The notes under the pieces are model-generated. The model was not told where the DNA came from. It searched no databases and was given only the letters and a program-made list of their open reading frames with translations. A stretch of 64,000 bases of DNA. It comes from Cupriavidus necator N-1. Its GTDB lineage: Bacteria; Pseudomonadota; Gammaproteobacteria; Burkholderiales; Burkholderiaceae. Positions 20,036 through 62,925 of this stretch are shown here, one piece after another. The translations under genes were made by a program, and so were the position numbers. The stretch spans positions 1,240,001 through 1,304,000 of the forward strand of contig NC_015727.1 in NCBI RefSeq assembly GCF_000219215.1, given 5' to 3'. How positions within the stretch are numbered: the stretch's first letter is position 1; every line of letters begins with the position of its first letter.

Positions 20036-20094
20036 GTCTCACCCCTCGGGCAGCTCGGGCTGCCTCATCTGTAAATTGGGAGTCTGTTGGCGCC

Positions 20095-31799: not shown

Positions 31800-31913
31800 A
31801 AAAGTGCCACCGGTTGGCAAGCAAAAGTGCCACCGCTGCCCGCCAAGGGCACGGTGTGGGAAGAATTTCCTTACGGTTCAATAACTTGGATGAAGCGAAG
31901 CGAAAGTGTCACC
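31798..31913. repeat. left-end motif array of the Tn7-like element
   Basis: GCAAAAGTGCCACC occurs at 31798-31811 and 31821-31834, with the variant GCGAAAGTGTCACC at 31900-31913. All have the same orientation, opposite to most copies at the right end, as expected for transposase sites at the two ends. The sequence from 31914 to 32032 holds nothing else recognisable. Confidence 0.5.
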
Positions 31914-32032
31914 AGCTACCATACCCACCGGCCCGATGCGCCAGCTTTCTGCGCCGATGTGAACGCCCGATGGGGCCCCGACCGCGCTCCACCGAGTACG
32001 CGTGAGCGAGCGTCCAAGTCGAAGCTGCACGA

Positions 32033-32650: not shown

Positions 32651-32654
32651 TTCG

Positions 32655-33214: not shown

Positions 33215-33326
33215 TTAGGTGACTGCATCTGTCTGTCTGCTGCGCACTTGGGTTCAGGCTGCTAGTGTCCAACTGGGACGGCGTGTTGGCAGATCTGTCT
33301 TGTCCCGTGGATTAGCGATTGTTTTG

Positions 33327-33381
33327 GCCGGTGGTTCGTCGTCTACGGCGGCTACGCCGCCGTAGACGACGAACCACCGGC
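33327..33381. repeat. 26-bp perfect palindrome with 3-nt loop
   Basis: 33327-33352 is perfectly complementary to 33356-33381, leaving the loop TAC. It lies 85 bp before the first recombinase gene and 112 bp from the element's left end. It could form a very stable hairpin or cruciform. No T-run follows. Confidence 0.85.
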
Positions 33382-33466
33382 GACGCCGAAATGTCGGGGC
33401 GCACGAGTTGATAGCGACGATTGCTTCGCGGAACGCCCAGTTGACGCTCTACTGCCTGGAGAGAAA

Positions 33467-36348: not shown

Positions 36349-36351
36349 CCC

Positions 36352-38163: not shown

Positions 38164-38537
38164 ACAAGAAGATGCATTTGTCGGTTCGGGAGCGTGTCGA
38201 AGCAGCCCTAAAAGTCGCGCGATCTGAAAATCCAAGCTCTCGAATTTCGGTGAGTGAACTGAGCCGGCTCGCTGGAGTGAGCCGCGCGAACCTCTACACA
38301 TCTCATCGGGATATAGTGGCGAGCCTGCAATCTAGCCCAAAGAAGGGGCATCCGCGCCAACCCAGCGCCGACCCGTCACAAAAGCTGAAGCAGCTTCGGA
38401 TAGAACTGCGGGACCAGGTGCGCAAAAATCGAGCGCTGGTCTATCTTGTGATAGAGCTTCGTGCGGAACTGCAGCGCACGCGTAACCAACTTGCCGAAGA
38501 GAAGCAATCAAAGGGCGCGCGCGAGAAACGACGATAA
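38160..38537 (+). CDS. TnpC-like small HTH/coiled-coil protein
   Basis: A 125-residue protein, the same length as Tn554 TnpC. Residues 8-60 hold an HTH with S-R-I-S-V-S-E-L-S-R-L-A-G-V-S-R-A-N-L-Y; residues 75-120 form a charged coiled coil. In Tn554, TnpC is an accessory factor that influences transposition frequency and orientation. ATGA overlap with recombinase 3. Confidence 0.7.
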   Translation: MNKKMHLSVRERVEAALKVARSENPSSRISVSELSRLAGVSRANLYTSHRDIVASLQSSPKKGHPRQPSADPSQKLKQLRIELRDQVRKNRALVYLVIELRAELQRTRNQLAEEKQSKGAREKRR

Positions 38538-38632
38538 GTTCATGAACGCGGCGGGCGATCGTCGACGCGCTCAAAGCGATGTTTGCGGCGACGTAGAATG
38601 GGACCGTACATACAAACAAGATCCGCACCTAA

Positions 38633-38638
38633 GCTGTG
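38633..38638 (+). repeat. 6-bp direct repeat GCTGTG, right flank of recombinase element
   Basis: Matches 33209-33214. Excision between the two copies would leave one copy and rejoin tnsC in frame (D-E-A-Q followed by R-Y-N). Confidence 0.75.
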
Positions 38639-39056
38639 CCTCGTCACAGAAGAGCAGCACCGTGCCGCTTCCCGCTCGAGCCGCCGCCTCGCGAATCCGG
38701 AGGGCCAGACGCATCCGCTTGGCCGGATTGGAACCTGCGTTCGGGTCCGGGTCTCCAACAGCCTCGAGCAAGTTCGCAAAGAACGGGCCTTCGGCATGCC
38801 GCGGCTTGTGTTCGCATTGCGCGTGGTAGCTCGTCATCTTCGGATGATTGCGCGCCAGCAGTAATCGCACGTACTCGATGGCGCGTGTCTTGCCGATGCG
38901 GGACGGGCCATAGGTCAGTGCTCCCATGACCCGGTAGCGTAGACATCGAGCAACCAGTTCATAGAAGGCTTCGATCGCAGGCGTGGCGATACGATAGTTG
39001 CCGGTCACCAGCGGGTGAAGTGACGGATCGATCGGACGCAGCATCTGAGGTGTCAT
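38633..39056 (-). pseudogene. tniB: tnsC/tniB AAA+ ATPase, 5-prime part (split by insertion)
   Basis: The frame begins at the ATG at 39056, 28 nt after tnsB. It contains Walker A Y-G-P-S-R-I-G-K-T-R and Walker B V-L-L-F-C-D-E-A-Q; after this the reading frame enters the inserted element and stops. The ATPase would normally activate the TnsB transposase and mark targets. The 3-prime part lies at 32655-33214. Confidence 0.88.
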
Positions 39057-39084
39057 GGCATACCTCGCAATGTGAACGACGGTG

Positions 39085-40168
39085 TTAGAAGACTTGGCCA
39101 GTCCCGATCGTGAGTTTGCGCGGCTGCGCCGGCGTGTGAGGCGCGATCGGGACACCGTCCGCCGCTACCGCGGCCGGTGCAGACACCACAGAGGAGGCGG
39201 CGCTCCGCGTGGACATGGCCTCGGCTGGCGTACGCGTTATCGGTGCACTGGCAAGCAGCCGCACGGTCCGCGCGTATTCCGTCGCGGCTTTCCGACTGGT
39301 CTTTGCCTGCGCGAGCTTGGCCTGCACATAAGCCTCGATCGGGTTCGAGTCGCCCGGTTGGCTTCGACGCCGATCCCGCAGCTTTCTCACCTCCTGGCGC
39401 AGCTTCAGGTTGTGCGGCACCACACCCCAGGCGCCTTGTGCATCCAGGACGCCAAGTTCCGTGCCATCCGTGAGAAAGGCTCGCACGCATCGCAGATCGT
39501 CAGCATTCAGGTAGACGAGTAGCTGCTTGCCGACCAGCCGCGCGCTTCTTGCCAGCACACCGCTCGTGTAGCGCACGCCATACAGGTTAATGTGCGGACG
39601 TACGCCTTGCTCAAGATAGGCACGCACACGACAACGGCGGGCCGACTGCATCAAGCACAGGGTGCGACGATGATGCTCAGCAAGCCGCGTCAGCACCGTC
39701 TGTTGAGTATTGAGCAAGTATTCCATTGCTTCGAGCGGGGTCACGCTGTTCAAGCCGGTATGCGGTGTACCGTTGTACGTCGTGATCGCATACTCAACCA
39801 GCTCCTCCAGTTCGTCGAGCGACACATAGAGCCGAAGATTGCCCTTCGGATCGGCGAGCGCGCGGCGCAAATCGCGTGGGTGCGAACCCGTGTAGCCGGG
39901 TAGGCGCGAAGACAGTCGCTGCGCCAGCGTGCCGAAGAAGCGTTCGATGTACGGGCGCTCATCCGGACAGTACCTGGGACCGGCATCGACTAGACAACCG
40001 ATGAATTCACACAGTGCCCTCAGCGTTTCGTTAGCCAGGTTCGCCTTGGCGTTGTCGAGCTTCATCCATTCCCACGTGACATACGAGAGCTCTGGCGAGC
40101 TCTGTATAGGCGACCTCCGGCCATGACCCCAGGTCGAGAGCTTGCAACTCCGGTTTGCGGCGGTTCAT
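39085..40168 (-). pseudogene. tniA: tnsB/tniA DDE transposase with internal deletion
   Basis: The gene starts at the ATG at 40168, overlapping the tnsA stop by ATGA, and reads about 25 codons (M-N-R-R-K-P-E-L-Q...). The frame is then lost, and from about 40083 another frame continues as the C-terminal half of a Mu/TnsB-type transposase: P-D-E-R-P-Y-I-E-R-F-F-G-T with the catalytic Glu, to a Lys/Arg-rich tail. Both catalytic Asp residues and roughly half of a normal length are missing. The junction lies near a repeated AGAGCTC. Confidence 0.75.
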
Positions 40169-47042: not shown

Positions 47043-48422
47043 CTAGAAGCGCTTTCGATAAGCAATAACCGCGTTGAGTTGGGAATGCTCCGTCCTGATC
47101 GGAACGGAGCTATTCGTTCCGCCTGGGTTCGTGAGTGTCTTCTGCAAGGCAAGCGACAGCGCGAAATCGAGAATGTCATCCTTGCCGATTGCATATGAGG
47201 CGCCTGTGCTCAAATGGGTTGTTGGCGTCGCCGGAATGACCGCAAGAAGACTGTCGCCAGGTATTGCTTCCTGGGCGTAACGCACCCCGCCTCTGAACGT
47301 CCATTTCGAATTGATACGATAGCTGGCTCCGACACCAAAAACATTGGTGTCTCTATAATTTTGAGGTAGAGAGATGTTCAAATTGGCGCCATTTCCGGAG
47401 CTTGTGAATCCAATATTGATATTTTTCATCGTGCTTGCCCAAAAAATTCGCTGATAATCGGCGGCGACCGTTAGGTTGTCCGTGATGTCGTGGCTAATGC
47501 CGAGAGAGAATTGCGCTGGCATTTGAAAATTTCGGACCACGATGGTTCCGCTCACCGGGATGTTGCCGGCCGTTGCGCTCACCGCATTCAGAGTAGCATT
47601 ACCTCTGAGATCACCAACGGCCGTTTTGGAGCTATATGCCACTCCAATTCTCGTGCTTGGCGCAAGCTGATAAGTCATCCCCAATTTTCCGGCTACGCCC
47701 CAGGCATCAGCTCCGCCACCAACTAGGCCGTCACGTGAAAACCTGATGTGGCCGCCCGAAAGCCCCGGAATTCCAAGCAGCGCGGGCACCAGGGTGCCAG
47801 AAACACGATTTGCCGCAGCCAATCCGCCGATCTGCGATGCGTCCAACAGCATTCCGACGTTCAACGCGGTCCACACCACGTCGAGCGATCCGCCCACTGT
47901 CAGTTTATCCGTCACGTTGTACGCGGCAGAGAACGGGATCCTCAACACGAGCAGCCGGGAAAAGTTGTCCAGCCCTGTATCCACACTGTTCGTGGTTGTC
48001 CGGGAGAGGAAGCTGCTCGATCCGTATTGTGTTCCCACCCCACCTTCCGCAAATACCCCGACGCCAAAAGCATAGGGATTGCGGCGATAGACGAAAGCCA
48101 GCTCCGGTGCAAAGTATGGACCATTGTTGCTTCCATGCTTCCCGGAATGCACAGATTCCCCGGTCGCGGTGTTCGTAACCTTGATGTCGGTGTTCACCAC
48201 GTCGAGTCCAATAGAGATATGCTTTCCTTCTGGCATCAATCCAAGCGTCGCGGGATTCAACATCATCGCAGCAGAGCCGATGTCATAGGCTACGCCGATG
48301 CCTCCCATGCCGCGGGAGATCGGCCCATAACCTTCCATGTTGAATACCTCCGTTGCATTGGCATGGGGGCACAGCACGGCCGCACAGATAGCGGACGCCA
48401 CACGAGCGTAACGACACTTCAC
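47043..48422 (-). CDS. tmoX: FadL/TodX-family outer-membrane hydrocarbon channel
   Basis: A 459-residue precursor with a signal peptide ending near A-N-A (residue 23). The mature N-terminus F-N-M-E-G-Y-G-P-I-S-R-G-M-G-G is the hatch signature of TodX/TbuX/XylN channels, and A-M-M-L-N-P-A-T follows. It ends in Arg-Phe. These proteins admit toluene-like hydrocarbons through the outer membrane by lateral diffusion. It follows tmoF, as tbuX follows the tbu genes in Ralstonia pickettii, rather than preceding tmoA as in Pseudomonas mendocina. Confidence 0.88.
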   Translation of the reverse strand: MKCRYARVASAICAAVLCPHANATEVFNMEGYGPISRGMGGIGVAYDIGSAAMMLNPATLGLMPEGKHISIGLDVVNTDIKVTNTATGESVHSGKHGSNNGPYFAPELAFVYRRNPYAFGVGVFAEGGVGTQYGSSSFLSRTTTNSVDTGLDNFSRLLVLRIPFSAAYNVTDKLTVGGSLDVVWTALNVGMLLDASQIGGLAAANRVSGTLVPALLGIPGLSGGHIRFSRDGLVGGGADAWGVAGKLGMTYQLAPSTRIGVAYSSKTAVGDLRGNATLNAVSATAGNIPVSGTIVVRNFQMPAQFSLGISHDITDNLTVAADYQRIFWASTMKNINIGFTSSGNGANLNISLPQNYRDTNVFGVGASYRINSKWTFRGGVRYAQEAIPGDSLLAVIPATPTTHLSTGASYAIGKDDILDFALSLALQKTLTNPGGTNSSVPIRTEHSQLNAVIAYRKRF

Positions 48423-48490
48423 AACTTGTCTCCTGATCTATTTCTTATCTGCCCTCTTCCCATCAATGAGAGCGCTCGGAAGTTATTCCT

Positions 48491-48502
48491 CGAGCATGCT
48501 CG
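48491..48502. repeat. 12-bp palindrome between tmoF and tmoX
   Basis: CGAGCATGCTCG is a perfect palindrome in the 139-bp gap between tmoF and tmoX. It may be part of a regulatory site or a small stem; nothing else is evident in the gap. Confidence 0.3.
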
Positions 48503-48561
48503 TTAATACATTGGCGGGGCTCGGAGGGAGATATCGATACTTGATGCCGATGATGAGGTCG

Positions 48562-49560
48562 TCATAAGAATCGATCAAAATGGACCTGCGCGAATGGAAC
48601 CTGATGCTTTTGCATGAGCAAGGTCTGGATGGCATCTACCATGGGCGCCGGCCCTGCGAAATAGAATTCATAACGGTTCAACGGCCTCGCAATCGCACGC
48701 TCGACCTCTTCGTGCACGAAGCCGGTCGCACCCCTCCAAGGAGACGATACCTGAGGGGTCGAAAGCACAATAGTTGTATCGAGCCGTTCGTGCGCGATTT
48801 CGTCGAGTTCTGCCGAGGCGCCAAGATCGGCCTGTGTGCGGGCTCCATAAAAGAAGCTGACTCGCCTTGAACCTGGCTGCGCGAGGGCTCCACGTGCGAC
48901 AGAAAGCATCGGTGCGAAGCCGGATCCGCCGGCGATACAGATGATGTCGCGCTCATTTTCATCACGCAGAAAGGCGTGGCCGTACGGGCCATCGAGCGTT
49001 ATCCTCTCGCCGACGCGGATGTCGAACAACGCGTTGCTGCTCGCTCCCCCGGGGACTCGGCGAATAATGAACTGCCAGAGGCCATCGCCATTGGAAAGAT
49101 TCGACATCGAATAGGCGCGCGCGCCTTGCGCCATAGGCGGGTACAACAACGCATACTGGCCCGGCCGGAATTGCGCCGCGTCCGGGACGTGGAGCGTAAA
49201 TTCGCTCATGTCCGGTGTCAGCGCGCGCCTATTTAGCAGTACTGCGGACCATCGGTTGGGATCTACGATCGGCCGGTAAGAGTCGGCACAGCGCACGCGA
49301 ATAGTGCAGTTGCTGGTTGGTCGCGACTGGCAGGCGAGCCGCTTGCCACGTCGGCGGTCGCGCTCGGCCAGCCCGGGTGCTTCCAGCCATAGCGTCTCCA
49401 TAGTGCCGGAGACGAGCTCGAAGCGGCACGCTCCGCAGCCGCCAACGCTACATTCGTGCGGGAATCCGACGCCGGCACGCAACGCGCCCCGCAGTAAGGT
49501 GTCCTCATTGGCGGCGACGCTGAATGCCTCGCCGCCTTCAATCGTTACTTGGTGTTCCAT
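48562..49560 (-). CDS. tmoF: toluene monooxygenase NADH reductase TmoF
   Basis: A 332-residue reductase. The N-terminal ferredoxin domain has C-S-V-G-G-C-G-A-C and a later Cys (L-A-C-Q-S-R); then FAD motif R-A-Y-S-M-S-N and NAD motif G-G-S-G-F-A-P. It transfers electrons from NADH to the Rieske protein TmoC. The ATG chosen starts M-E-H-Q-V-T-I and overlaps nothing; a longer frame reaches into tmoE. Confidence 0.92.
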   Translation of the reverse strand: MEHQVTIEGGEAFSVAANEDTLLRGALRAGVGFPHECSVGGCGACRFELVSGTMETLWLEAPGLAERDRRRGKRLACQSRPTSNCTIRVRCADSYRPIVDPNRWSAVLLNRRALTPDMSEFTLHVPDAAQFRPGQYALLYPPMAQGARAYSMSNLSNGDGLWQFIIRRVPGGASSNALFDIRVGERITLDGPYGHAFLRDENERDIICIAGGSGFAPMLSVARGALAQPGSRRVSFFYGARTQADLGASAELDEIAHERLDTTIVLSTPQVSSPWRGATGFVHEEVERAIARPLNRYEFYFAGPAPMVDAIQTLLMQKHQVPFAQVHFDRFL

Positions 49561-49603
49561 CGCCGTTTCCCGTGGGCACGGCCGAGTCGCCTCGGCCCCT
49601 TCA

Positions 49604-50590
49604 TTACAATCCGATCGTGAGCCTGAAGTCTCGTGTAGCGGCAATCGCGCTTGCCTGGGCTTCAGGTGCGTCAGGCAGCGCGGCGCAATACGCCGCCACA
49701 GCCTCGTCGGCTAATGGTTCCCACTTGTTTAACCACGTCGCGAAGGCGGAGCCGTTCGACTCTTGCTGCAGCGCCATTCCGACCAACTTGGCGGCCCATC
49801 GTCGGTGCCGCTGAGCGTCGGCAAGTTGTGAGTCGGTCAATAGCCCCAACAGCATGTCGCCGTTATGCCGGGCGGCTTGTCCGAGACCGCGCAGCACGGT
49901 CTCCTCCATGGCCGGTCGAACAACAAGGTTGAGCGCGAAAAAACTTTCGGCCCAGTCCCACGCGACCAGCGCCTGTTCGACAACTCTGCGCCAACCCTGC
50001 CACGCAGGATCCTGCTCCCAATAGTGACGTTCGTCGCGACCGAACCCGAGGTCGGTGAACGTGCGCGAGAGCTCACGCGTTCTATAGGCGGTATGCGTTA
50101 GCCAGCGCAGTGAATCGGCAGTCTGATAAGCGGCGCAGTTGGAAATGGTCGAAGCTGGGGCCATCTGCGCCAAATATGCCGACCCCATTTGCAGTGCGTG
50201 AAACAGGAAGCGTGCCGGCGTATAAAGGCGCACCAAGGTACCGGCCCACGTGCGCTCGAGCATCGCATCGTGGCCGCGCGCCGAGAACTGGTCCAACAAC
50301 CCAGAAACGTAGGTTTCCTGACCGTCCTGGAGCAGATTGTAGGTACGGTAAACCATTTCGTCTGGATCGCGGAACGCATTCCAGTCGGGATGGCTTAGCG
50401 CTGACGAATTTCGATAGCGCTTGAACCATTGCGCCATCCCAAAGTTCGGATCTAGCTCGAATGGTGCTTCGGGGTTGTTAGTGGTGTAGTGAAGATTTGT
50501 CGTAACGATTTCATACTCGCTGGGCTTGCGCCGCCGAGCGGCCAAGTGGCTCCAGGTCTTCAGGGGTTTCAGAAACTCGGGTTGGGACAT
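49604..50590 (-). CDS. tmoE: toluene monooxygenase hydroxylase beta subunit TmoE
   Basis: A 328-residue all-helical subunit without metal ligands, starting M-S-Q-P-E-F-L-K-P-L-K-T-W-S-H-L, with E-L-S-R-T and D-E-R-H-Y-W segments typical of TmoE/TouE. It packs against TmoA and TmoB in the (alpha-beta-gamma)2 hydroxylase. Order A-B-C-D-E-F is that of the tmo/tbu/tou clusters. Confidence 0.92.
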   Translation of the reverse strand: MSQPEFLKPLKTWSHLAARRRKPSEYEIVTTNLHYTTNNPEAPFELDPNFGMAQWFKRYRNSSALSHPDWNAFRDPDEMVYRTYNLLQDGQETYVSGLLDQFSARGHDAMLERTWAGTLVRLYTPARFLFHALQMGSAYLAQMAPASTISNCAAYQTADSLRWLTHTAYRTRELSRTFTDLGFGRDERHYWEQDPAWQGWRRVVEQALVAWDWAESFFALNLVVRPAMEETVLRGLGQAARHNGDMLLGLLTDSQLADAQRHRRWAAKLVGMALQQESNGSAFATWLNKWEPLADEAVAAYCAALPDAPEAQASAIAATRDFRLTIGL

Positions 50591-50602
50591 CTTCGCCTCC
50601 GT

Positions 50603-50917
50603 TTAAAGCGTCTTCTCGTAATAGAATCGAACCTGGTCGTCCGAGATTTCGATCCGGCCCGCAAACGAACTGAGGTTGACTTCCAGCTCAGACATCTTGA
50701 ATGGGCGACCGAGCGCTTCCTCCAAGGTGGAGCGGCGCAGGATCAATTCGCCGTCGGTATCGATGCGGACATACGCTACTTTGTCGTCAATGCGAATATC
50801 CTTGCCTGGGTTGTCCTCCCGCGCGGCCTCGATCACGCCGGCTGTAATATCGCTTCCGCGCAGCACAGGGCCGACCCGGTTGTTGCGGTAGGCGTCTGCC
50901 GTCTTGTTGATGCTCAT
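50603..50917 (-). CDS. tmoD: toluene monooxygenase effector protein TmoD
   Basis: A 104-residue regulatory protein of the MmoB/TmoD family: [10 protein letters not shown] near residue 12, then I-E-A-A-R-E-D-N-P and R-I-D-T-D-G-E-L. It binds the hydroxylase and gates the active-site channel and oxygen activation. Confidence 0.9.
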
Positions 50918-50934
50918 GGTGTAGTTCTATCCAA

Positions 50935-51270
50935 TTAGGAATGGGCAAAAAGCGGTTGGACGCCATCGACGGCAACCAGAACGTCGTCTCCGTCCAGCTT
51001 CACCGCATACTCGGCGAGACGGCAGTCTCCTGGGTTGATTCCTCGCCCGGTGCGCGCGTCGAACGTCCACTGATGAGCGCGACACATCAGTACACGACCG
51101 TCGAACTTTCCTTCCACGAGTGGGATGTCCTGGTGCGGGCAGATGCCCTGGAATGCGCGCGGTTCCTCGCCCTCTGGCCAGACCAAGACGATCACGTGAT
51201 TGTCGATCTCCACCTCGATCATCTCGCCCTCCCAGAACTCATCGAGGGTGCAAACTTTCTGGAAATTCAT
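50935..51270 (-). CDS. tmoC: toluene monooxygenase Rieske ferredoxin TmoC
   Basis: A 111-residue Rieske protein with C-P-H-Q-D and C-R-A-H-Q-W cluster-ligand pairs. It shuttles electrons from TmoF to the di-iron hydroxylase. The ATG giving M-N-F-Q-K-V fits the family; 4 extra codons upstream would overlap tmoB. Confidence 0.92.
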   Translation of the reverse strand: MNFQKVCTLDEFWEGEMIEVEIDNHVIVLVWPEGEEPRAFQGICPHQDIPLVEGKFDGRVLMCRAHQWTFDARTGRGINPGDCRLAEYAVKLDGDDVLVAVDGVQPLFAHS

Positions 51271-51278
51271 AGCCGAGC

Positions 51279-51539
51279 TCAATTTTCGCTGAAGATGAAT
51301 TCGAGCGCTTCCATCGGTTTGATGTCCGTCTCGCTCAGTTTCACGTCGCGCGGATAGAACTGGTCGCTGCCCTGGCGCCGTACCCTGACCACCTTGCCCG
51401 GCCGAGGTGCAACGCGCCGGCCGACCGAATGATGAGCGGCTGCAGCGGCCACCTCATCCATGGTGTTTTCGGTATCGACAGCGACCAGCTGAAGTAGGAA
51501 ATCGTATTGAAAATTGGAAATTACTGGAAAGACTGCCAT
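51279..51539 (-). CDS. tmoB: toluene monooxygenase hydroxylase gamma subunit TmoB
   Basis: An 86-residue ubiquitin-fold subunit typical of TmoB/TouB: F-P-V-I-S-N-F-Q-Y-D-F-L-L-Q-L-V-A-V-D start and C-terminal M-E-A-L-E-F-I. It is part of the hydroxylase complex and encoded directly after tmoA. Confidence 0.92.
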   Translation of the reverse strand: MAVFPVISNFQYDFLLQLVAVDTENTMDEVAAAAAHHSVGRRVAPRPGKVVRVRRQGSDQFYPRDVKLSETDIKPMEALEFIFSEN

Positions 51540-51563
51540 GTCATCCTCCGTTCGATTGCGGCC

Positions 51564-53069
51564 TTAGGCGGCCTTCTTCTGATATCGCATGTCGCGGTAG
51601 GTTTCGACCCACGCGTACTTGTGCGCATCGTCACCCATTTCACCCGGCCCGAGATTCATATACTTGAGTGCACCCGACAGATCAGGCGGCTGAATATGGC
51701 CGGCGAGGAACCGGTCCACCAAGGAAAGGTGGCCACGGTAGCGAACTGGGTCTTGCTGGAACACCCAACGGTCGATCTCAGAGTTGAAGTGGTACGTGCG
51801 GCCGTTGTAGTCGAGCGGATAATCCTTGACGTTCCATCCGCTTCCTGGGACCGCGCAGATTGGCAGCTGGCTCATGTTGCAGATAATGGGCAGCGTCTCC
51901 GGAACGGTCAGTTCTGGCTTGCCTGCCAGCAGGTTTTCGATGATGACGTCCCAGGCCGCACCGAACGTGTCGTTCCAGCCGGGATATTTTTCCTCTAGCC
52001 AGTCGCGGCATTCATGTGTCATACCAGCGGCTGGGTTCCACCAGACCGTCGGGCGCCAGAACCAGACGCCGAGGTGGTATGCGTGATGCTGGTAGTCAAG
52101 CTCGTTGATCATCTGATCCCAGTACCACGGGATGTCGAGACCCAGATCAATCAGCATGCGTTCAAACTGGCCGACGATCCATTCCTGCATGAACTCCTTG
52201 AACGACTGCTTCCGGTGCTCCAGCGGGGTGTAATAGTCCATCGCAGTACCGGTGAGCAGGCTAAATAGCCTCCAGGCTCGCGCAATCGCGACGTCAATGA
52301 GCCTCTGGGCCTCTTCTTTTCTGCCATTCGCAATGAGCACCTGTAGCGCGGGTCCGCCGATCTGTGCATGACGCGACTCATCAGTCTGGATACTGGAGAT
52401 CAAGCTCGAGAATGTGAAATCGCCCGCTTCGGCTGCATCCGCTGCGAGTCCGAGGAACTGCATGTTGGTGAAACCCGTCTCGAATGCGAACGTCAGCATC
52501 ACTGAGATCTCGATCGCGCTGCGCGACATCATCAGGTCGTCGAAGGCGCTGCGTGCAGCGATCGCGCCCCATTCGTTCGTGTGATAGGCTTTGTGGGCCC
52601 AATCGAACTGGCGATCCTTGGAGCAGTAATCGTGAGGAAAATGCAGTTGCAGCTGTCCGTGCCGGTTCTCATCGAGCATGCCGAACGTAGCCATGTTTCG
52701 CATGCCAGGTGCTCGGCCGAATCGGACCATGCGAGCCTCTGCACTCATCCCCGCGTACTCTGCAAGCGCAATGGCGCCGTAATGTGCTTTCAGGATCGAC
52801 AACCAGCCCGGGTCCGCGTCCTCAAACATGCGGCTGCGCTCCAGGGCAGCCTTGACAGAGTAGGCTCCTGCATCCTTCTCCCGCTGGATCCGCACATACT
52901 CGGGATAGGAGGTCTTGTATGGCTCGTCGTAGGACTCCCAGCTCGTCATTGGGATGCCTTGGGCACCAGTCATAATTTCGGGAAACAATTCGGACTCCGC
53001 AACGTAGCTTGGAGTCCAGTTCGTGGCGCGTGCAATGTCGTACCAGTCCGCGCGTTCCAATAACGCCAT
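51564..53069 (-). CDS. tmoA: toluene monooxygenase hydroxylase alpha subunit TmoA
   Basis: A 501-residue di-iron oxygenase subunit with the same numbering as toluene 4-monooxygenase. All six ligands are present: E104, E134, H137 (D-E-N-R-H), E197, E231 and H234 (D-E-S-R-H). T201 is also conserved. In the substrate pocket I100 is kept, but positions 103 and 107 are Ala and Gly instead of the Gly and Ala of T4MO, so ring-position preference may differ. A further 34 codons upstream are promoter sequence (repeat copy A) and not part of the protein. Confidence 0.95.
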   Translation of the reverse strand: MALLERADWYDIARATNWTPSYVAESELFPEIMTGAQGIPMTSWESYDEPYKTSYPEYVRIQREKDAGAYSVKAALERSRMFEDADPGWLSILKAHYGAIALAEYAGMSAEARMVRFGRAPGMRNMATFGMLDENRHGQLQLHFPHDYCSKDRQFDWAHKAYHTNEWGAIAARSAFDDLMMSRSAIEISVMLTFAFETGFTNMQFLGLAADAAEAGDFTFSSLISSIQTDESRHAQIGGPALQVLIANGRKEEAQRLIDVAIARAWRLFSLLTGTAMDYYTPLEHRKQSFKEFMQEWIVGQFERMLIDLGLDIPWYWDQMINELDYQHHAYHLGVWFWRPTVWWNPAAGMTHECRDWLEEKYPGWNDTFGAAWDVIIENLLAGKPELTVPETLPIICNMSQLPICAVPGSGWNVKDYPLDYNGRTYHFNSEIDRWVFQQDPVRYRGHLSLVDRFLAGHIQPPDLSGALKYMNLGPGEMGDDAHKYAWVETYRDMRYQKKAA

Positions 53070-53078: not shown

Positions 53079-53208
53079 TCCTATTTGGTATCGGCTAGTT
53101 GTCTGTCCGCTCAGGTGGACCAGACAGTGTCCGTAGATTAGTGGGCAGCGTGCAGACGGGCTATTACACATTGGTTTAGACGGCGGCCGACGAAGTCGCG
53201 CCGAATGG
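53079..53208 (-). promoter_or_regulatory. tmoA promoter region (repeat copy A)
   Basis: About 130 bp directly upstream of tmoA, repeated at 54296 and 60114. On the minus strand it holds CTAAACCAAT (complement 53170-53179), close to half of the TodT box ATAAACCATC described for the todX promoter, about 100 bp before the tmoA ATG. It is the likely TmoT-activated promoter. Confidence 0.6.
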
Positions 53209-54295: not shown

Positions 54296-54416
54296 TCGGC
54301 TATTTGACTGGCGGCTCAGATGCACCAAACAGTGTCCGTAGATTAGTGCGCGGGGCGTCGGTGGGCTATTACACATTGGTTTAGAAGGAACCCTTCGGCG
54401 AAGTCAAGCCGAATGC
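54296..54416. repeat. tmo promoter repeat copy B, upstream of tmoS
   Basis: Second copy of the tmoA promoter sequence, more diverged at its edges but keeping CAGTGTCCGTAGATTAGTG and CTATTACACATTGGTTTAGA (complement CTAAACCAAT at 54377-54386). Towards tmoS it continues into a leader that is also duplicated at 60.2-60.46 kb. Confidence 0.7.
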
Positions 54417-54531: not shown

Positions 54532-57500
54532 ATGGTGTACAACACTTCCGAAATCTCCGGGAACCTGCAAAGACTTCAGCGATCGGTGAACGCTGGCCGT
54601 TTCCTACGCATGATCCCGCAACGACACCGGAACAGAACCATGCAAACCATCAATCCCCAACTGTTCTCGCACGGGCAGACGCTTCGCGTGGGCGGCGTCA
54701 CATTGCGCGCGACCGATGGTTTGCGGACGCACCGTGAAAAGCTTGCACGCATCGTACTTGACCAGATGTACCAATTCGTCGGGCTCTTGGACGCTGACGG
54801 CTTGACTTTGGAGATCAACGAGGCTGCGCTTGCGGGTGCCGGTATCCGGCTGGACGATATCCAAGGCAAGCCGTTCTGGGAGGCACGGTGGTGGTGTGTC
54901 TCAAAGCAGACTCAGGAATGTGCACAGGACGCTATCGAACGCGCCTGTCGGGGCGAGTTCGTGCGCTTTGACGTGGAAGTCTATGGGCGGACAGGTGGCG
55001 AGGAGACAATCATCGTTGACTTCTCGCTGCTCCCCGTTAAGGACCGGCGTAACGAGGTCATGTTTCTGCTTGCCGAAGCCCGCAACATCACCGAGAAAAA
55101 GCGGTCCGAGGCGGAAATCGTGCGCAAGAATGAGGAGTTACAGCAGCTACTCGACAAGATCCGGCAGATCGACGCGCTGAAGAGCGACTTTTTCGCCAAA
55201 GTCAGCCATGAACTTCGCACACCGCTAGCGCTCATCCTTGGGCCGGCGGAATCCTTGATTGCGGGCAGCGACAATCTGAACGAGCAGCAGAGGCGCGACT
55301 TGACTGTGATTCGTCGCAACGCCACCACGCTGCTCAAGCACGTCAACGACCTGCTCGACCTCGCCAAACTCGACGCCGGCAAGATATCGCTCGATTATGC
55401 GCGTATCGACGTGGCGCACACCGTCCGTGCCGTCGCTGCACACTTCGACACGCTGGCGCCGCAGCGGTCGTATTCCTACGTGGTTGCGTTACCAGAGGCC
55501 TGCGAAGCAGAAGTCGATCCGCAGAAATTTGAGCGTATTGTGCTGAATCTGCTCTCCAACGCTTTCAAATTCACGCCGCCGGGTGGCCGTATCAGATGCG
55601 GGCTCGAGCCGAGCGGGAACAGTCGTTTTCTTGTCACCGTGCAGGATAGCGGGCCAGGGGTCGCGCCAGAGATGCGAACTGTCCTCTTCGAACCATTCTG
55701 CCAGGGGCGCGCGGGCATGGCCGGTGAGTTTGGGGGCACTGGACTGGGCTTGGCCATCGTCAAGGAGTTTGTCGACCTGCACGGCGGCACGGTGTCCATG
55801 TCTGAAGCCCCGGGGGGCGGCGCACTCTTCCAAGTTGAATTGCCATTGTTAGCACCGAAGGGGACTTACGTTAGGCAGGACGTTGCCCTGCCACAGCGTG
55901 TTGTGCCCGCCGTAAATGTTGATGTGAATGAGGCCCTGCTGGCCACTGAACTGCCCTACGCAGACAGCCGACAAGCGCTCGACCGACCGCGCGTGCTCGT
56001 GGTCGAAGACAATGTCGAAATGGGGCGCTTCCTTTCCCAGATACTTGCCGACGAATATCGCGTCGAGCACGCGATGGACGGCTCGAAAGCATTGGCAGCC
56101 GCCATTGCGGAGCCGCCTGATCTCGTCGTCACTGATCTCATGATGCCCGAGCTCTCCGGCGACGAACTCGTTGCGGAGATGCGTAAGCAAGCATCGCTCG
56201 CACAAGTGCCCGTGCTAGTGCTTTCGGCCAGGGCCGACGACGCACTTCGACTGGAACTTCTAGCAAGTTCGGTGCAAGACTATGTCATCAAGCCGTTTTC
56301 GGTTCACGAGCTACGAGTGAGGGTCCGCAATCTCATCCGGATGAAATCTGCGCGCGACGTACTGCAGAAAGAACTCGCGAGCCAGAACGATGACCTTGGG
56401 CAATTAGCCCGGCAGCTCATTGCGAGCCGTCAAGAATTGCAGCGGAGCCTTGCCGCAGAGCGGGCGTCGGAGCAACGCTGGCGGGTGGTCTTCGAGAATT
56501 CGGCCGTGGGCATAGCATTGACCGATACCGATGGACAGTTCATGGCGGCCAATCCGGCGTTTCGCCGGATGCTCGGATACACCGAAAAGGAACTTACGCG
56601 GCTGTCGATCGAGTCGATCACGCCGGCAGAGGATCGAGCCATAGCTCGATTGCACATTGCCAACCTCGTGGGAGGCAAGCGGCGCGAGTATCGACTGGAG
56701 AAGCGATATTCACGCAAGGATGGCAGTGCTGTCTGGGTGGACACTAGCGTGTCGTTGATTCCTGGAGACGGAAGTAGGCAATCTATGCTGGTCGGCATTG
56801 TCGAAGATATTACCGAACGCAAACGGGCGGAGCATGCGCTTGCGCAGACCGAAGCGGAACTAGCCCGCGTCAGCCGCGTGACCACGATGGGTGAACTAGC
56901 GGCGTCCATCGCGCATGAAGTAAACCAGCCCTTGGCTGGAGTGGTGGCAAACGGCCACGCCTGCCTCCGCTGGCTAGCCGCTTCACCGCCGAACGAGCAA
57001 GAAGCGCATGAGGCGGTGCAGCGCATCATCCGCGACGCAAACCGGGCCGGAAACGTGATCGCCAGGATCCGGCAGTTCCTAAAACGGGAAGAACCACAAC
57101 GAACGGCAATTCGCCCAAACGAGGTCGTTTCCGAAGTGATTAGCATGGTACAGGATTCGCTGCGCAGTAACCGCATCTCTCTGTGTGAAGCATTAGCCCC
57201 CAACCTCCCACCTGTAGCGGCTGATCGAGTTCAATTGCAACAGGTCATTCTGAACCTGGTCATGAACGCGATCGAGGCAATGAGTTTGGTCGAGGGGCGA
57301 GCCCGAGTTTTAATGGTGACCACTCAAAGGAATGACCAGAGCGCCGTGCATGTCGCGATACGTGACACAGGAGTGGGCCTCGATACTCGTCAACTTGAGC
57401 GGGTCTTTGACGCCTTCTACACGACTAAGCCGCAGGGCATGGGAATGGGGCTCGCGATCTGCCGCTCGATCGTCGAGACCCATGGCGGACAGCTTTGGGC

Positions 57501-57570
57501 GATGCCGAACGACGGTTTCGGCGCGAGCTTCCATTTCACTTTCCCCATTGCAGCATCGGATGGATCATGA
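54532..57570 (+). CDS. tmoS: TmoS/TodS-type hydrocarbon sensor double histidine kinase
   Basis: A 1012-residue soluble kinase in the TodS order: PAS-1 (about 75-190), kinase 1 with H226 in V-S-H-E-L-R-T-P, receiver (486-600) with D535, PAS-2 (about 645-765), kinase 2 with H795 in A-H-E-V-N-Q-P. PAS-1 keeps the residues that line the toluene pocket in TodS (Y-Q-F-V-G-L-L-D, K-P-F-W-E-A-R-W-W). It should phosphorylate TmoT when aromatic hydrocarbons bind. The start follows AGAAGGAA and is supported by a conserved ATG in the duplicated leader at 60361; an ATG at 54640 is an alternative. Confidence 0.93.
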   Translation: MVYNTSEISGNLQRLQRSVNAGRFLRMIPQRHRNRTMQTINPQLFSHGQTLRVGGVTLRATDGLRTHREKLARIVLDQMYQFVGLLDADGLTLEINEAALAGAGIRLDDIQGKPFWEARWWCVSKQTQECAQDAIERACRGEFVRFDVEVYGRTGGEETIIVDFSLLPVKDRRNEVMFLLAEARNITEKKRSEAEIVRKNEELQQLLDKIRQIDALKSDFFAKVSHELRTPLALILGPAESLIAGSDNLNEQQRRDLTVIRRNATTLLKHVNDLLDLAKLDAGKISLDYARIDVAHTVRAVAAHFDTLAPQRSYSYVVALPEACEAEVDPQKFERIVLNLLSNAFKFTPPGGRIRCGLEPSGNSRFLVTVQDSGPGVAPEMRTVLFEPFCQGRAGMAGEFGGTGLGLAIVKEFVDLHGGTVSMSEAPGGGALFQVELPLLAPKGTYVRQDVALPQRVVPAVNVDVNEALLATELPYADSRQALDRPRVLVVEDNVEMGRFLSQILADEYRVEHAMDGSKALAAAIAEPPDLVVTDLMMPELSGDELVAEMRKQASLAQVPVLVLSARADDALRLELLASSVQDYVIKPFSVHELRVRVRNLIRMKSARDVLQKELASQNDDLGQLARQLIASRQELQRSLAAERASEQRWRVVFENSAVGIALTDTDGQFMAANPAFRRMLGYTEKELTRLSIESITPAEDRAIARLHIANLVGGKRREYRLEKRYSRKDGSAVWVDTSVSLIPGDGSRQSMLVGIVEDITERKRAEHALAQTEAELARVSRVTTMGELAASIAHEVNQPLAGVVANGHACLRWLAASPPNEQEAHEAVQRIIRDANRAGNVIARIRQFLKREEPQRTAIRPNEVVSEVISMVQDSLRSNRISLCEALAPNLPPVAADRVQLQQVILNLVMNAIEAMSLVEGRARVLMVTTQRNDQSAVHVAIRDTGVGLDTRQLERVFDAFYTTKPQGMGMGLAICRSIVETHGGQLWAMPNDGFGASFHFTFPIAASDGS

Positions 57571-58211
57571 ACCCGATCGAGCCCCTCGTCTTTCTGGTCG
57601 ATGACGACTTTTCTGTGCGGGAAGGACTGACCAGCCTCGTTCGTTCAGTCGGGCTGCGCGTCGAAGCCTTCGCATCGGCTCAGGAATTCCTGGATTTTGC
57701 ACGCCCAGATGCCCCCACGTGCTTGGTGCTGGACGTCCGTATGCCCGGGCTGAGCGGGCTAGACTTACAGCGTATGCTGCTCGACGCGAAGGACAGGATT
57801 CCGGTGATATTTATTACCGGTCATGGGGATATCCCGATGACGGTGCGCGCTATGAAAGCCGGAGCGCTGGAATTTCTGCCGAAGCCATTTCGTGAAGAAG
57901 ACCTGCTGAGCGCCATTCGTGAGGCGCTCGCGCACAACTTCATTACCCGGCAGCAACAGGCCGAGCGAGGTGAGCTTGAGCACAGATATGCGACGCTTAC
58001 CGCGCGCGAGCGGGAAGTGATGCCGTTGATTGTTCGGGGGATGCTGAATAAGCAGGTAGCCGCCGATTTTGGCATCGCAGAGGTAACCATAAAGGTACAC
58101 CGGCACAACATCATGCAGAAAATGAAGGCGCGATCGCTACCGGAACTGGTGCGGATGGTTGAAAAGCTTCAATCCGGCGTTTCCAGCGAAGGGAAAGACT
58201 CTGCGATCTGA
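57567..58211 (+). CDS. tmoT: TmoT/TodT-type response regulator
   Basis: A 214-residue FixJ/NarL-type regulator. The receiver (1-120) has F-L-V-D-D-D and the phospho-acceptor in L-V-L-D-V-R-M-P-G, then K-P-F. The C-terminal LuxR-type HTH (about 145-205) has L-T-A-R-E-R-E-V-M and E-V-T-I-K-V-H-R-H-N-I-M-Q-K-M. Its ATG overlaps the tmoS stop (ATGA). It probably activates the tmo promoter and its copies. Confidence 0.92.
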   Translation: MNPIEPLVFLVDDDFSVREGLTSLVRSVGLRVEAFASAQEFLDFARPDAPTCLVLDVRMPGLSGLDLQRMLLDAKDRIPVIFITGHGDIPMTVRAMKAGALEFLPKPFREEDLLSAIREALAHNFITRQQQAERGELEHRYATLTAREREVMPLIVRGMLNKQVAADFGIAEVTIKVHRHNIMQKMKARSLPELVRMVEKLQSGVSSEGKDSAI

Positions 58212-58632: not shown

Positions 58633-59535
58633 TCAGGATTTTACGCGCAAGCGCTCGACTTCGGCCGCCGGGACATTTTCCCGCTCCTTGAGCAGCGTAT
58701 AGTCGAACTCGATCAGTGCGAACTGGCCGTCGATGCCGTACGGCTTCCCTTCAGCGCCTCCGGCCTGCTTGATCTTCGGGATAAGACCTTCGCGGGTCGC
58801 AAATGCGAAGTCGTCCCAGATGTGCGGATCGCCTTCGATATTGATCTGCGTCGTCAGCTTGCGATATCCAGCCGCGGAAACGAAGAAGTGGATATGGGCG
58901 GGACGATGACCGTGCCGGCCAAGCTGATCTAGCAACTGCTCAGTCTTGCTGCCCGGCGGCACGCTGTAGCCAACCGGCAGCACGCTGCGAAAACTGTAAC
59001 GGCCTTCGGCATCGGTCCGGATCGAGCGGCGCAGGTTGAACGGCGGCTGCGACGGGTCGAAGTATGAGTAGTTGCCAAGATGGTTCGCATGCCAGACCTC
59101 GACGAGTGCGTTTGCGAGCGGCACACCGTTCTCGTCGAGAACCTGCCCGCGCATCACCAGCGTCTGACCTGGATCTGTGCCGTCGTCAAGTCGCGCATAA
59201 CCGACCGACTCCGGTGCGCCCGCGACGTAGAGCGGCCCTTCGATGGTACGCGGTGTGCCGCCGTGGATTCCGGCCTTCGCTTCAGCTTCGTCCATTCGGA
59301 TGTCAAGGAAGCGCTCGAAGCCAAGCCCGGCGGCAATTAGGCCAAACTCCCTCCCGGCTTCATTGAGGTAGTTTAGCGCCGTCCAAAATTCGCTCGGCTG
59401 AACATCGAAGTCCTCGATCGTGTAGAAAAGGTCCTTTACGATCCGGTTTACAATCGATCGCACGCGCGGGTTGCCCGGCTTTGTCGCGGAATCGTCGAAC
59501 GTCTTCAGCAGGGCGTCGATGGCTTGCTTGTCCAT
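58633..59535 (-). CDS. catA: catechol 1,2-dioxygenase
   Basis: A 300-residue intradiol dioxygenase. The helical N-terminal domain is followed by E-G-P-L-Y-V and the four Fe(III) ligands: Tyr in G-N-Y-S-Y-F, Tyr in G-R-Y-S-F-R and the two His in R-P-A-H-I-H-F. It opens catechol between the hydroxyls to cis,cis-muconate. It follows a truncated catB on the same strand. An RBS (AGGAGA) precedes the ATG. Confidence 0.95.
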   Translation of the reverse strand: MDKQAIDALLKTFDDSATKPGNPRVRSIVNRIVKDLFYTIEDFDVQPSEFWTALNYLNEAGREFGLIAAGLGFERFLDIRMDEAEAKAGIHGGTPRTIEGPLYVAGAPESVGYARLDDGTDPGQTLVMRGQVLDENGVPLANALVEVWHANHLGNYSYFDPSQPPFNLRRSIRTDAEGRYSFRSVLPVGYSVPPGSKTEQLLDQLGRHGHRPAHIHFFVSAAGYRKLTTQINIEGDPHIWDDFAFATREGLIPKIKQAGGAEGKPYGIDGQFALIEFDYTLLKERENVPAAEVERLRVKS

Positions 59536-59584: not shown

Positions 59585-59995
59585 TCATCCTGTCGATGCG
59601 AGCCCAGTCGAATGCGATGCCAAGGCCAGTAGCCTAGGGCAAATGTAACTTGAAATCTTCGTAACAAGCGCGCACTTCGCAAAACGGTTGTCCTGGAAAA
59701 GCTTGCGCACATGCGCCATCGCGGCGCCATTGCGGGTCGCGTCCATCCCCAGCGGCAGCGCCGCGAAATAGGTGTCTATGCTGACTTGGATGCTCTCCGG
59801 GCTTTCCTCGCCGTACGCCAGGCCGCCGATCGTCGTGCCTACGCCTACGCCCTCAATACCGTGCCGGCATCGAACTCGGACAAATACTGGGGTCTGGCAA
59901 TTCATCGTGGCGACCGACAGTTTGTGATGCCTGATCGTTGGGATGTCGCCTAATAGTGTCTCAACGCGCTCGATGGCCGGGGCTGCTGCTATCAT
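59585..59995 (-). pseudogene. catB: muconate cycloisomerase catB, 5-prime fragment
   Basis: The first about 105 codons match the N-terminal domain of muconate cycloisomerase (A-I-E-R-V-E-T-L-L, T-T-I-G-G-L-A-Y-G-E-E-S-P-E-S-I, L-F-Q-D-N-R-F-A-K-C-A). The similarity then stops and the frame ends after about 30 unrelated residues. The catalytic Lys and metal-ligand domain are gone, so no active enzyme can be made. The following catA is intact. Confidence 0.88.
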
Positions 59996-60113: not shown

Positions 60114-60464
60114 CCTATTTGGTATCGGCTATCTGTCTGGCCGCTCGCGTGTACCAGACAGTGTCCGTAGATTAGTGGGCAGCCCGCAGGCGGGCTATTA
60201 CACATTGGTTTAGACGGCGCGCGAAGAAGTCGCGCCGAATGGAGCCCACTCAGAAGTCGAATCCGCTTATCCGGATGCGCCGATGGAGAGATGCAGCGCA
60301 CCAATAGCCTCAGGGGGCCACGATTAGGTAAGAATCCGAATTCACCTGGAGGAATGGATGGTGTACAACGCTTCCAGAATCTCAGGGAATGTGAACGCTG
60401 CCGTTTCCTACGCATGCGCGCAACGGGACAGGAACCGAACCATGGAAACCATCAATCCCCATGG
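60114..60464. repeat. copy C of the tmo promoter plus tmoS leader
   Basis: The first 130 bp match tmoA promoter copy A closely; the following 220 bp match the tmoS leader and the first codons of tmoS (ATG at 60361 after GGAGG, then M-V-Y-N, and M-E-T-I-N-P at 60442). The element therefore holds an undivided tmoA/tmoS divergent region. The CTAAACCAAT half-site is at complement 60204-60213, facing catB-catA. Confidence 0.85.
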
Positions 60465-60789: not shown

Positions 60790-61440
60790 ACAGAAGGCCG
60801 CCGTAACAGTACTATCGTCGCGCAGCCGGCGGCTCATGATGATTGGCGACGTAGCGACTGGCTCGGGCAGTCGACGATAGATGATGCCCCGCACCCGCAC
60901 ACCTTCAACGCTTTCCGGCGCGAGTGATACGCGCAACTTGCGCGGCAACAAGACCGAGCGCCGTCTGCAGCTCTCGAACCTCGTAAATGGCCGCAGGTTG
61001 GAGCCCGCCGTCACGCAGAGCAGACAGTTGCTGATCCGCGAAACTAGGCCGCGGCGTGCTCGGATAGACAATCAACGTCTCCCGCGCTATGTCGGCGAGC
61101 GTTACTGGCCGCTTGGGTTCGGCAAGCGCATGCCCGGCCGCCAGTACTGCGCTTCTCCTCCACAAGCGCCTCGCGCACGAGCTGGTCGTCGTAAAACCGC
61201 AGCCGACCGAAACCGACGTCAATGCGGCCGCCCTTCAGCGCGCCGAGTTGCTCGAGTGTGAACATTTCGATTACTGTAACGACAGTTCGACGTCTTGCTG
61301 TGTCTCGCGGAACGTACGAATCACATCCGGCAGTGAGCCGTAGAGCGTAGACGGCACGAATCCGATCACGATTCGCTTCGACTTTTGTGCAAGCCGCCGG
61401 GTCAGTGGGCCAATATCGTCGGCCTGATTTATGCGAGCGC
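60790..61440 (-). pseudogene. LysR (CatR-like) effector domain, frameshifted
   Basis: Across three frames the minus strand reads I-V-I-G-F-V-P-S-T-L-Y-G-S-L-P, then R-I-D-V-G-F-G-R-L-R-F, then P-R-P-S-F-A-D-Q-Q-L and R-G-I-I-Y-R-R-L-P. This is a full CatR/BenM-type effector domain with several frameshifts. No HTH precedes it on this strand. Confidence 0.7.
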
Positions 61441-61667: not shown

Positions 61668-61686
61668 CAAGCGCAGGAAGTGATGG

Positions 61687-62925
61687 ATGGATATCATCGG
61701 CCATCAACTATTCTCCGTTTCCCGGCAGCTCGATGTGTGCGATGTTACGCTCTGTGCGGACGACGATCTCGAGACACAGCGGGATAAGCTCGCGCGCATC
61801 ATGCTGGCCTCGATGTACCAGTTCGTCGGCCTATTGGATGCAGACGGAATAATGCTAGAGATCAACCGGGCAGCGCTCGACGCAGTTGGGATACGAATCG
61901 ATGAAGTCCGGGGAAAGCCGTTCTGGGAAGCCCGTTGGTGGGTCATCTCGTCGGAGACACAGGCATTGCTGCGGGGGCTGATCCGGCGCGCAAGCCACGG
62001 CGAATTTGTCCGCTGCGACTTTGAAGTCTACGGTCAAACAGCGGGCGAGGATACTATCATCGTTGATTTCTCCCTCTTACCAATCAGAGATAAGAATGGC
62101 AAGGTCATATTTCTGCTGCCTGAAGGCCGCAATATCACTGAGAAGAAGCTTGCCGAGGCCGAGATCGCAAGGAAGAACGAAGAGTTGCAGGCGAGCCGAG
62201 AATTGATTCGACGCCAGCGTGACGAGCTCCAGAGTCTCTACAATAAGATCGTAGCAGAGCAGAAAGTGTCGGAGCGGTTGCTTCTAAATTTGCTTCCCTA
62301 CCCGATTGCGGAGCGATTGAAGGCTCGTCCTGAGCTGATTGCCGACTGCATCCCGGAAATCATCGCCGACAGCTTCCCGGATGTGACAGTCTTATTTGCC
62401 GACATCGTGGAATTTACTAGGTTTTCGGCGGGGATGAAACCCGAGCGGCTCGTAGGCCTTCTCAACGAGATCTTCTCCGAATTCGACACCATTGCTGACC
62501 ATCGAGGTCTTGAAAAGATTAAGACCATTGGCGATGCTTACATGGCGGCTGCGGGGCTTCCGGAACCGGCAGCAGATCACGCGACACGCGCTGCGCATAT
62601 GGCGTTGGACATGATCGACGCATTAGGGCGCTTCAATCAGCACTGCGGCTATAAGCTGCAGATGCGCATCGGCATCAATAGCGGTGCGGTGGTAGCCGGC
62701 GTCATCGGAAAACGAAAATTCATTTATGACTTGTGGGGCGATGCGGTAAATACCGCCAGCCGGATGGAATCCCACGGCGTGGCGGGACGGGTGCAGGTAA
62801 CGGATGCAACGCGGCACCGGCTTGGTGAGCAATTCTTGTTTGAAGAGCGTGGGACCATCGTTGCTAAGGGGATCGGCTTGGTACATACCTGGTTCCTTTC
62901 TGGCCGAACCGTTGCACCGTCCTGA
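61687..62925 (+). CDS. TodS-type PAS domain fused to class III adenylate cyclase
   Basis: A 412-residue soluble protein. Residues 30-155 are highly similar to TmoS PAS-1 and keep F46, F79 and W85 at TodS numbering, residues that line the toluene pocket in TodS. A coiled-coil linker (155-198) leads to L-L-L-N-L-L-P-Y-P-I-A-E-R-L and the cyclase domain (230-405). All key residues are present: metal-binding D239 and D283, adenine-selecting K279 and D348, transition-state N355 and R359. Aromatic-hydrocarbon control of cAMP synthesis is inferred. AGGAAG precedes the ATG. I know of no described protein of this design. Confidence 0.9.
   Translation: MDIIGHQLFSVSRQLDVCDVTLCADDDLETQRDKLARIMLASMYQFVGLLDADGIMLEINRAALDAVGIRIDEVRGKPFWEARWWVISSETQALLRGLIRRASHGEFVRCDFEVYGQTAGEDTIIVDFSLLPIRDKNGKVIFLLPEGRNITEKKLAEAEIARKNEELQASRELIRRQRDELQSLYNKIVAEQKVSERLLLNLLPYPIAERLKARPELIADCIPEIIADSFPDVTVLFADIVEFTRFSAGMKPERLVGLLNEIFSEFDTIADHRGLEKIKTIGDAYMAAAGLPEPAADHATRAAHMALDMIDALGRFNQHCGYKLQMRIGINSGAVVAGVIGKRKFIYDLWGDAVNTASRMESHGVAGRVQVTDATRHRLGEQFLFEERGTIVAKGIGLVHTWFLSGRTVAPS

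Follow-up and report, generated by a model that had tools for sequence, protein, structure and literature searches.

The sensors closest to the one described here are the kinases TodS, TmoS and StyS, in which a first PAS domain (PAS1) is accompanied by two histidine kinase modules, a receiver and a second PAS domain. On the output side, the closest relatives are class III cyclases, where a Lys/Asp pair marks adenylate specificity and Glu/Cys is the alternative pair. Bacterial cAMP is mainly a signal of carbon status, and the cyclases that produce it do not bind the growth substrate. In TodS, the toluene pocket of PAS1 consists of 12 listed residues, and the E146/R148 pair and region 150-163 have been tied to signal transfer (PMC4861429). 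The accessible part of that study reports that the mutant I114V retains its affinity for toluene (Kd 8.4 vs 8.5 uM) and binds m-xylene more tightly (6.1 vs 9.5 uM), and that toluene signalling is lost in the remaining pocket mutants made, A145V and V59A included, with the exception of V126A, which responds at 100 uM (PMC4861429).

The locus analysed here lies in a window (the whole stretch of DNA under analysis) of 64,000 nucleotides from Cupriavidus necator N-1 (contig NC_015727.1, positions 1,240,001 to 1,304,000), and its gene encodes a protein of 412 residues, hereafter the PAS-cyclase (Table 1). The reading frame and its limits are those given in the initial annotation, and the fusion of a sensor to an output other than a kinase, which that annotation had proposed, is borne out by Pfam: PAS_4 matches residues 43-154 (45.3 bits, cut-off 23.1) and Guanylate_cyc (PF00211) residues 228-405 (209 bits). 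Pfam detected neither a kinase nor a receiver nor a further PAS domain, so that PAS and cyclase are the only domains found, a layout that departs from that of the TodS, TmoS and StyS kinases. A sequence search of the PDB divides the protein in the same way, with the TodS PAS1 structures (5hwt, 5hwv, 5hww) matching residues 42-168 (E 6e-46) and class III cyclases matching residues ~171-410. All 50 matches listed by the fold search were adenylate or guanylate cyclases (best 5o5k, 5o5l, 4p2f and 7yz9), and this search is therefore uninformative on the PAS domain.

Table 1. Features of the PAS-cyclase gene and its surroundings, in window coordinates.
Feature	Position	Strand	Evidence
PAS-cyclase gene, 412 aa	61687..62925	+	ORF, Pfam, PDB sequence search, full-length relatives
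AGGAAG, likely ribosome-binding site, 6 bases 5' of ATG	61675..61680	+	sequence; function inferred
TodS-type PAS1 core, residues 43-149	61813..62133	+	Pfam, PDB sequence search, residue table
Single long helix, residues 151-201, predicted coiled-coil linker	62137..62289	+	AlphaFold2 model, linker lengths
LLLNLLPYPIAERLK, residues 198-212, conserved helix/cyclase junction	62278..62322	+	alignment; aligned with PDB cyclase junctions
Class III cyclase domain, residues 228-405	62368..62901	+	Pfam, PDB sequence search, fold search, residue table
Toluene 4-monooxygenase-like (tmo-like) operon	47043..53069	-	ORFs; Phenol_Hydrox, Toluene_X by Pfam
TmoS/TodS-like hybrid histidine kinase	54640..57570	+	start inferred; longest ORF from 54532
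TmoT/TodT-like response regulator, REC + LuxR-type HTH	57567..58211	+	Pfam; start codon inferred
Catechol 1,2-dioxygenase (catA-like)	58633..59535	-	

Judged by its sequence, the input domain belongs to the TodS-type PAS1 class. It aligns to TodS PAS1 without gaps over residues 42-168 (127 residues, E 4.5e-47), and its core is identical at 72 of 127 positions to TodS and at 85 of 125 (68%) to the TmoS of the window. To describe it as almost a copy of TmoS is too strong, the two proteins sharing 59% identity over 201 residues. The pocket positions read F46, G48, I59, A63, F79, W84, W85, V114, V126, F128, P145 and G147, so that nine of the 12 TodS residues are identical and three are changed (V59I, I114V, A145P). 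The switch residues E146 and R148 are both kept, as is the region corresponding to the signal-transmission region 150-163 of TodS. Across 74 family proteins scored, the window protein included, E146, G147 and R148 are invariant (74/74); position 145 is P in 71 and position 114 is N in 17, while position 46 is Y in eight. P145 also occurs in many TodS-type kinases. Given A145P in the PAS-cyclase and the loss of signalling in the A145V mutant of TodS, a toluene response is not to be assumed.

The pocket residues of TodS recur in kinases from many unrelated bacteria; those with names include Archangium, Longimicrobiaceae and Acidoferrum, none of which is known to us as a hydrocarbon degrader. Against TodS PAS1, the Archangium kinase scores 153.6 bits, the TmoS of the window 154 and the cyclase of the window 162.9. 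Since this control scores like the window TmoS, the conserved pocket does not prove the ligand, and we rejected it as such a proof; with the same pocket present in unrelated kinases, the claim for a particular ligand rests mainly on the gene neighbourhood.

In the output domain, all six catalytic residues that had been claimed are present: D239 and D283, which we take to bind metal, K279 and D348, presumably in contact with adenine, and N355 and R359, presumably acting on the transition state. These residues, like F46, F79 and W85 in the pocket, stand exactly where the initial annotation had placed them. The PF00211 match, the two metal Asp and the Asn/Arg pair identify the window protein as a class III cyclase, and K279/D348 support, at the level of residues, an adenylate rather than a guanylate signature. 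D239, K279, D283, D348 and R359 are conserved in all 74 family proteins scored, the window protein included; position 355 is N in 68 of them, I in five and T in one.

The AlphaFold2 model (mean pLDDT 76, pTM 0.48) consists of the PAS domain, one helix spanning residues 151-201 and the cyclase. The first part of the helix corresponds to the TodS signal-transmission region. The helix is confident up to about residue 190, the means of 10-residue blocks being 83-95 for 151-190 and 54 for 191-200. It ends in the LLLNLLPYPIAERLK junction, which we take to be the transducer between helix and cyclase. Among the 77 proteins with both PAS and LLP motifs (from the 120 matches listed of 7996), the linker from R148 to P204 has 56 residues in 74 and 42 in three, the Marinobacterium group. 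The difference of 14 residues amounts to two heptads, which is what a coiled coil that has to keep its phase would require. Cyclases with a receiver domain (REC-cyclases) seem to follow a similar heptad spacing: from receiver start to cyclase start, those of the L016 type are 28 residues (four heptads) longer than those of the L028 type.

The family counts rest on the 120 protein matches listed of 7996. Seventy-eight of these carry the PAS motif, and 72 of the 78 have at least 380 residues. Among the matches listed, full-length PAS-cyclases are 66-85% identical to the window protein, with names given mostly as Cupriavidus and then as Burkholderia, Paraburkholderia, Undibacterium and Marinobacterium; below them stand REC-cyclases with very similar cyclase domains. 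The genus Cupriavidus has 17 PAS-cyclase copies in 14 of 60 genomes. A search of the same 60 genomes with TmoS PAS1 (E up to 1e-30) found a TodS-type PAS domain in 18 places, 17 on cyclases and one on a kinase, the TmoS of the window, which is thus the only TodS-type PAS kinase in this set. The genome studied has three such domains: TmoS and two cyclases, the window copy and a second one (L119). Beyond the genus, 19 pass among 398 genomes drawn from the family, 18 being PAS-cyclases and one (G280) covering residues 161-409 only, and the search at class level (369 genomes) gave a single match, in the window's own genome.

The view that TodS-family PAS domains occur only with kinase output is not supported: 17 of the 18 genus domains sit on cyclases, and in a further protein (P0159) the domain is accompanied by AAA domains of the sigma54-activator type, which represent a third form of output. 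Four further proteins (P0180, P0195, P0214, P0231) combine a TodS-type PAS domain with kinase, receiver, GGDEF and EAL domains, and it is possible that the same sensor is linked there to c-di-GMP. The initial annotation had proposed to look for the same domain pair and took many described homologues as an argument against its reading. Homologues are indeed many, but in the open-licence PubMed Central literature we found neither a TodS-type PAS-cyclase nor an iif cluster with a cyclase described; subscription papers on indole strains of Cupriavidus may do so. Each domain is familiar by itself, and what appears to be new is their combination, together with its distribution in Cupriavidus and its association with aromatic clusters.

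We searched for 22 marker proteins in the flanks of 24 PAS-cyclase loci and 19 control cyclase loci (16 REC-cyclases by Pfam and three truncated frames with cyclase only). With tmoS and tmoT left aside, catabolic markers lay near 20 of the 24 PAS-cyclase loci vs one of the 19 controls (L021, tod-like), numbers to be read with the facts that several loci of both kinds are shorter than 20 kb and that many are close relatives and hence not independent. One of the 20 (L014) has an AraC-type regulator as its sole marker, and four of the 24 have none. Without the five loci that supplied the markers (the window, L121, L132, L010 and L009), markers were found at 15 of 19. The tod dioxygenase genes are beside the PAS-cyclase at L010, on a plasmid of Cupriavidus campinensis MJ1, and at L133; a catechol 2,3-dioxygenase is beside it at L132, and cat genes at L009 (pHG1), L131, L011 and L012. 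The window copy has tmo, tmoST and catA.

We think it somewhat more probable than the reverse that these proteins form a family of aromatic-gated adenylate cyclases with a TodS-type PAS domain. We infer an aromatic ligand of the PAS domain whose binding raises activity, cAMP as the product, and a CRP-type regulator as its reader. As predicted, the protein would be a cytoplasmic homodimeric adenylate cyclase. On entry of a small aromatic compound into the PAS pocket, the beginning of the helix would become ordered through the F46-E146-R148 switch, and a continuous coiled coil would align the two cyclase domains for the conversion of ATP to cAMP. The presence of an aromatic growth substrate would thus raise cAMP, to be read by the CRP-type regulator. 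The sign of the response could be reversed, the aromatic lowering activity; some aromatics are described as antagonists in part of the TodS literature (PMC4321377). The direct switch from aromatic to cAMP that the initial annotation had envisaged is plausible from domains, signature residues and neighbours. Its choice of toluene as the particular ligand is not upheld, in view of the iif-like neighbours of relatives, the same pocket in kinases of unrelated bacteria and A145P. Where tmo or tod genes are adjacent, one would first think of toluene or benzene; in the family's main branch, indole or a styrene-like compound has as good a claim as toluene to be the ligand.

No class I adenylate cyclase was found in the genome. 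It contains one REC-cyclase (L003) and ten weaker cyclase-domain matches, so that cAMP would have other sources. There are 14 matches to cNMP-binding domains, and two of the 12 looked at (L142, L143) carry a stretch resembling a phosphate cassette (GE...PRTHDA).

A narrower form of the aromatic-gated reading, which overlaps with it, takes indole, or a product of indole or styrene oxidation, as the ligand, the window copy having moved beside tmo; we regard it as a tentative possibility. The commonest arrangement around relatives consists of an AraC regulator, an SDR, a StyA-type oxygenase, a flavin reductase, a CrtO-like oxidoreductase, a PF04199 protein and a MetA-pathway porin, followed by the PAS-cyclase. 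This set of seven genes is complete in six loci (L119, the second copy of the genome studied; L121, L122, L123, L128 and L129), where the porin precedes the PAS-cyclase by 133-278 bp; L124-L126 have the StyA-type set without the PF04199 protein and the porin. The arrangement looks iif-like by its gene content, with indole as a candidate substrate. According to available parts of the literature, the iif clusters for indole include the majority of these gene types, and Cupriavidus sp. IDO has more than one copy (PMC6221969, PMC12538310). Near-identical StyA genes (at least 91% identity to that of L121) occur in 11 genus genomes, L121's included, and in nine of them the PAS-cyclase lies 2.4-4.4 kb away. 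Fragments of the porin before the cyclase of pHG1 (L009), and of the porin and the PF04199 gene in L120, fit movement out of an iif-like cluster.

Other observations speak against indole as the ligand. The StyA-type oxygenase scores 208.6 bits where the StyA cut-off is 550, the cluster has the extra CrtO-like gene, and a second StyA type (58-61% identical), which is more widespread in the genus and was not found beside a PAS-cyclase, may be the true indole one. The DNA upstream of the window copy has no resemblance to the iif-like spacer, for which reason we rejected a shared promoter.

A position after a StyA/B-type cluster is seen at L119 and in eight other genus genomes; the window copy does not have it. 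The genome studied has two StyA-type genes (G000:C3:3566557-3567780 and that of L119), and only the rarer one, of the L121-like type, has a PAS-cyclase nearby. The cluster of L129 (G014:C68) contains a decaying copy, with P at R359 and a broken N-terminus, and thus not every family copy is intact; its genome carries two further PAS-cyclase copies.

That the PAS domain answers instead to non-aromatics such as quinones, or to the redox state, so that the cyclase reports on metabolic state, seems to us unlikely. Menadione inactivates TodS, as stated in part of the published work (PMC4321377). TodS-type PAS domains also have a wide distribution among the kinases of bacteria unrelated to this one, and the PAS-cyclase has lost A145. 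The strong co-location with genes of aromatic catabolism points the other way, and so does TodS itself, which is reported, in the accessible part of its description, to bind no FAD, FMN, heme or NAD(P) (PMC4861429).

Within the window, the matching two-component system that had been claimed beside the PAS-cyclase is present as a TmoST-type pair (54640..58211, +). The tmo-like operon presumably comprises, by length and similarity, the hydroxylase subunits, ferredoxin, effector protein, reductase and a FadL/TodX channel. A 16-base near-palindrome, CTAAACCAATGTGTAA, has three exact copies (53164-53179, 54369-54384 and 60198-60213 (-)) which precede tmoA, tmoS and the catA block; its expectation is 0.16 for up to 3 mismatches, and the copies lie inside a repeated segment of 130-370 bp. 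We take it to resemble the TodT box, and the copies may be the set of TmoT operators. Palindromes of the TodT-type consensus number eight in the window (6.2 expected), and CTAAACCAATGTGTAA alone stands out. The TmoT-box-like palindrome nearest to the PAS-cyclase, at 60198, is ~1.5 kb away and probably serves catA. No sigma70-type promoter was found upstream of the PAS-cyclase, and an enrichment of CRP-like sites in the window was rejected, since 12 were found vs 20.8 expected by chance.

The region also shows signs of rearrangement. Between the catA block and the PAS-cyclase, a fragment of a LysR substrate-binding domain (60905-61222, -) looks like the remnant of a regulator, and at 59585-59995 (-) there is a truncated muconate cycloisomerase of 136 aa with the N-terminal domain only. 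Genes of meta-cleavage type occupy 2673-21719 (e.g., a DmpG-like aldolase at 13270 and glyoxalase-fold proteins at 3762 and 20799). Between these and the tmo genes, a mobile mosaic at 30078-40065 contains an ISL3-type transposase, a phage-integrase-type recombinase and a weak match to an rve-type integrase. The local copy might accordingly be a passenger of mobile catabolic genes with no regulatory role, as the transposase and recombinase genes, the truncated cycloisomerase and LysR remnant, the lack of a recognisable promoter and the decay of the relative L129 would suggest. We hold this to be improbable: the frame is intact and all catalytic and switch residues are kept, whereas decay of the kind seen in the neighbouring genes is what one would expect of a passenger.

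The origin of the fusion was approached with trees. The PAS tree (80 rows; eight rows, including seven long branches, left out) places the window protein in an all-cyclase set of 37 rows (support 100/93) and the window TmoS with kinases (98/87), an argument against a recent local fusion. For the Undibacterium pair, the neighbours are kinases in the PAS tree and REC-cyclases in the cyclase tree, and the pair lies outside the main clade in both; the Marinobacterium group is outside it in the cyclase trees only. The position of the Undibacterium pair hints at a second fusion, although in the AU test a single PAS-cyclase clade was not rejected (p 0.49 for PAS, p 0.25 for cyclases). A recent origin by recombination between a cyclase gene and the tmoS of the window, the shuffling proposed in the initial annotation, could be argued from the 68% identity of the PAS core and from the end of tmoS lying ~4.1 kb upstream of the PAS-cyclase, but is so improbable as to be ruled out by trees in which the PAS domain of the window protein groups with other cyclases and not with TmoS, and by full-length relatives at 66-85% among the matches listed.

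It is quite possible, if short of probable, that portable aromatic-gated cyclases took over the TodS sensor from a phosphorelay, with cAMP becoming a second messenger in the catabolism of aromatics and indole. Their genes would move together with clusters of the StyA/B, tod, tmo and cat types, and the genome studied would sense toluene in parallel through a kinase, turning the pathway on, and a cyclase, resetting global metabolism. If a cyclase that binds the substrate is real, catabolism and global control are linked in one protein, and a soluble module of 412 residues converting a chemical into cAMP would be available for biosensors. Thanks to the available structure of PAS1 with bound toluene, the identity of the ligand can be put to a direct test, and the linkers of 56 and 42 residues are a natural experiment on how a PAS domain drives a cyclase through a coiled coil.

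Compared with known systems, the cluster of the relatives shares with the iif/ind indole clusters the AraC regulator, SDR, StyA-type oxygenase, flavin reductase, PF04199 protein and MetA-pathway porin, and differs in its extra CrtO-like oxidoreductase and in the adenylate cyclase, which goes unmentioned in the accessible parts of the published iif descriptions; the PAS-cyclase of the window stands outside any such cluster. Class III cyclases of the Rv1625c and mammalian type have in common with the PAS-cyclase the PF00211 domain, the six catalytic residues on one chain and the LL..LLP junction; in place of a membrane domain, the 412 residues of the latter include a PAS sensor. The REC-cyclases of Burkholderiales (L003 of the same genome; L016-L021, L023-L027) have a cyclase domain ~66-84% identical, whereas their input is a receiver domain and the control loci show catabolic markers in one case of 19. 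With the TodS/TmoS kinases, finally, the PAS-cyclase shares PAS1, the pocket aromatics F46, F79, W84, W85 and F128, the E146/R148 pair and region 150-163, while its output is a cyclase and its pocket differs by V59I, I114V and A145P.
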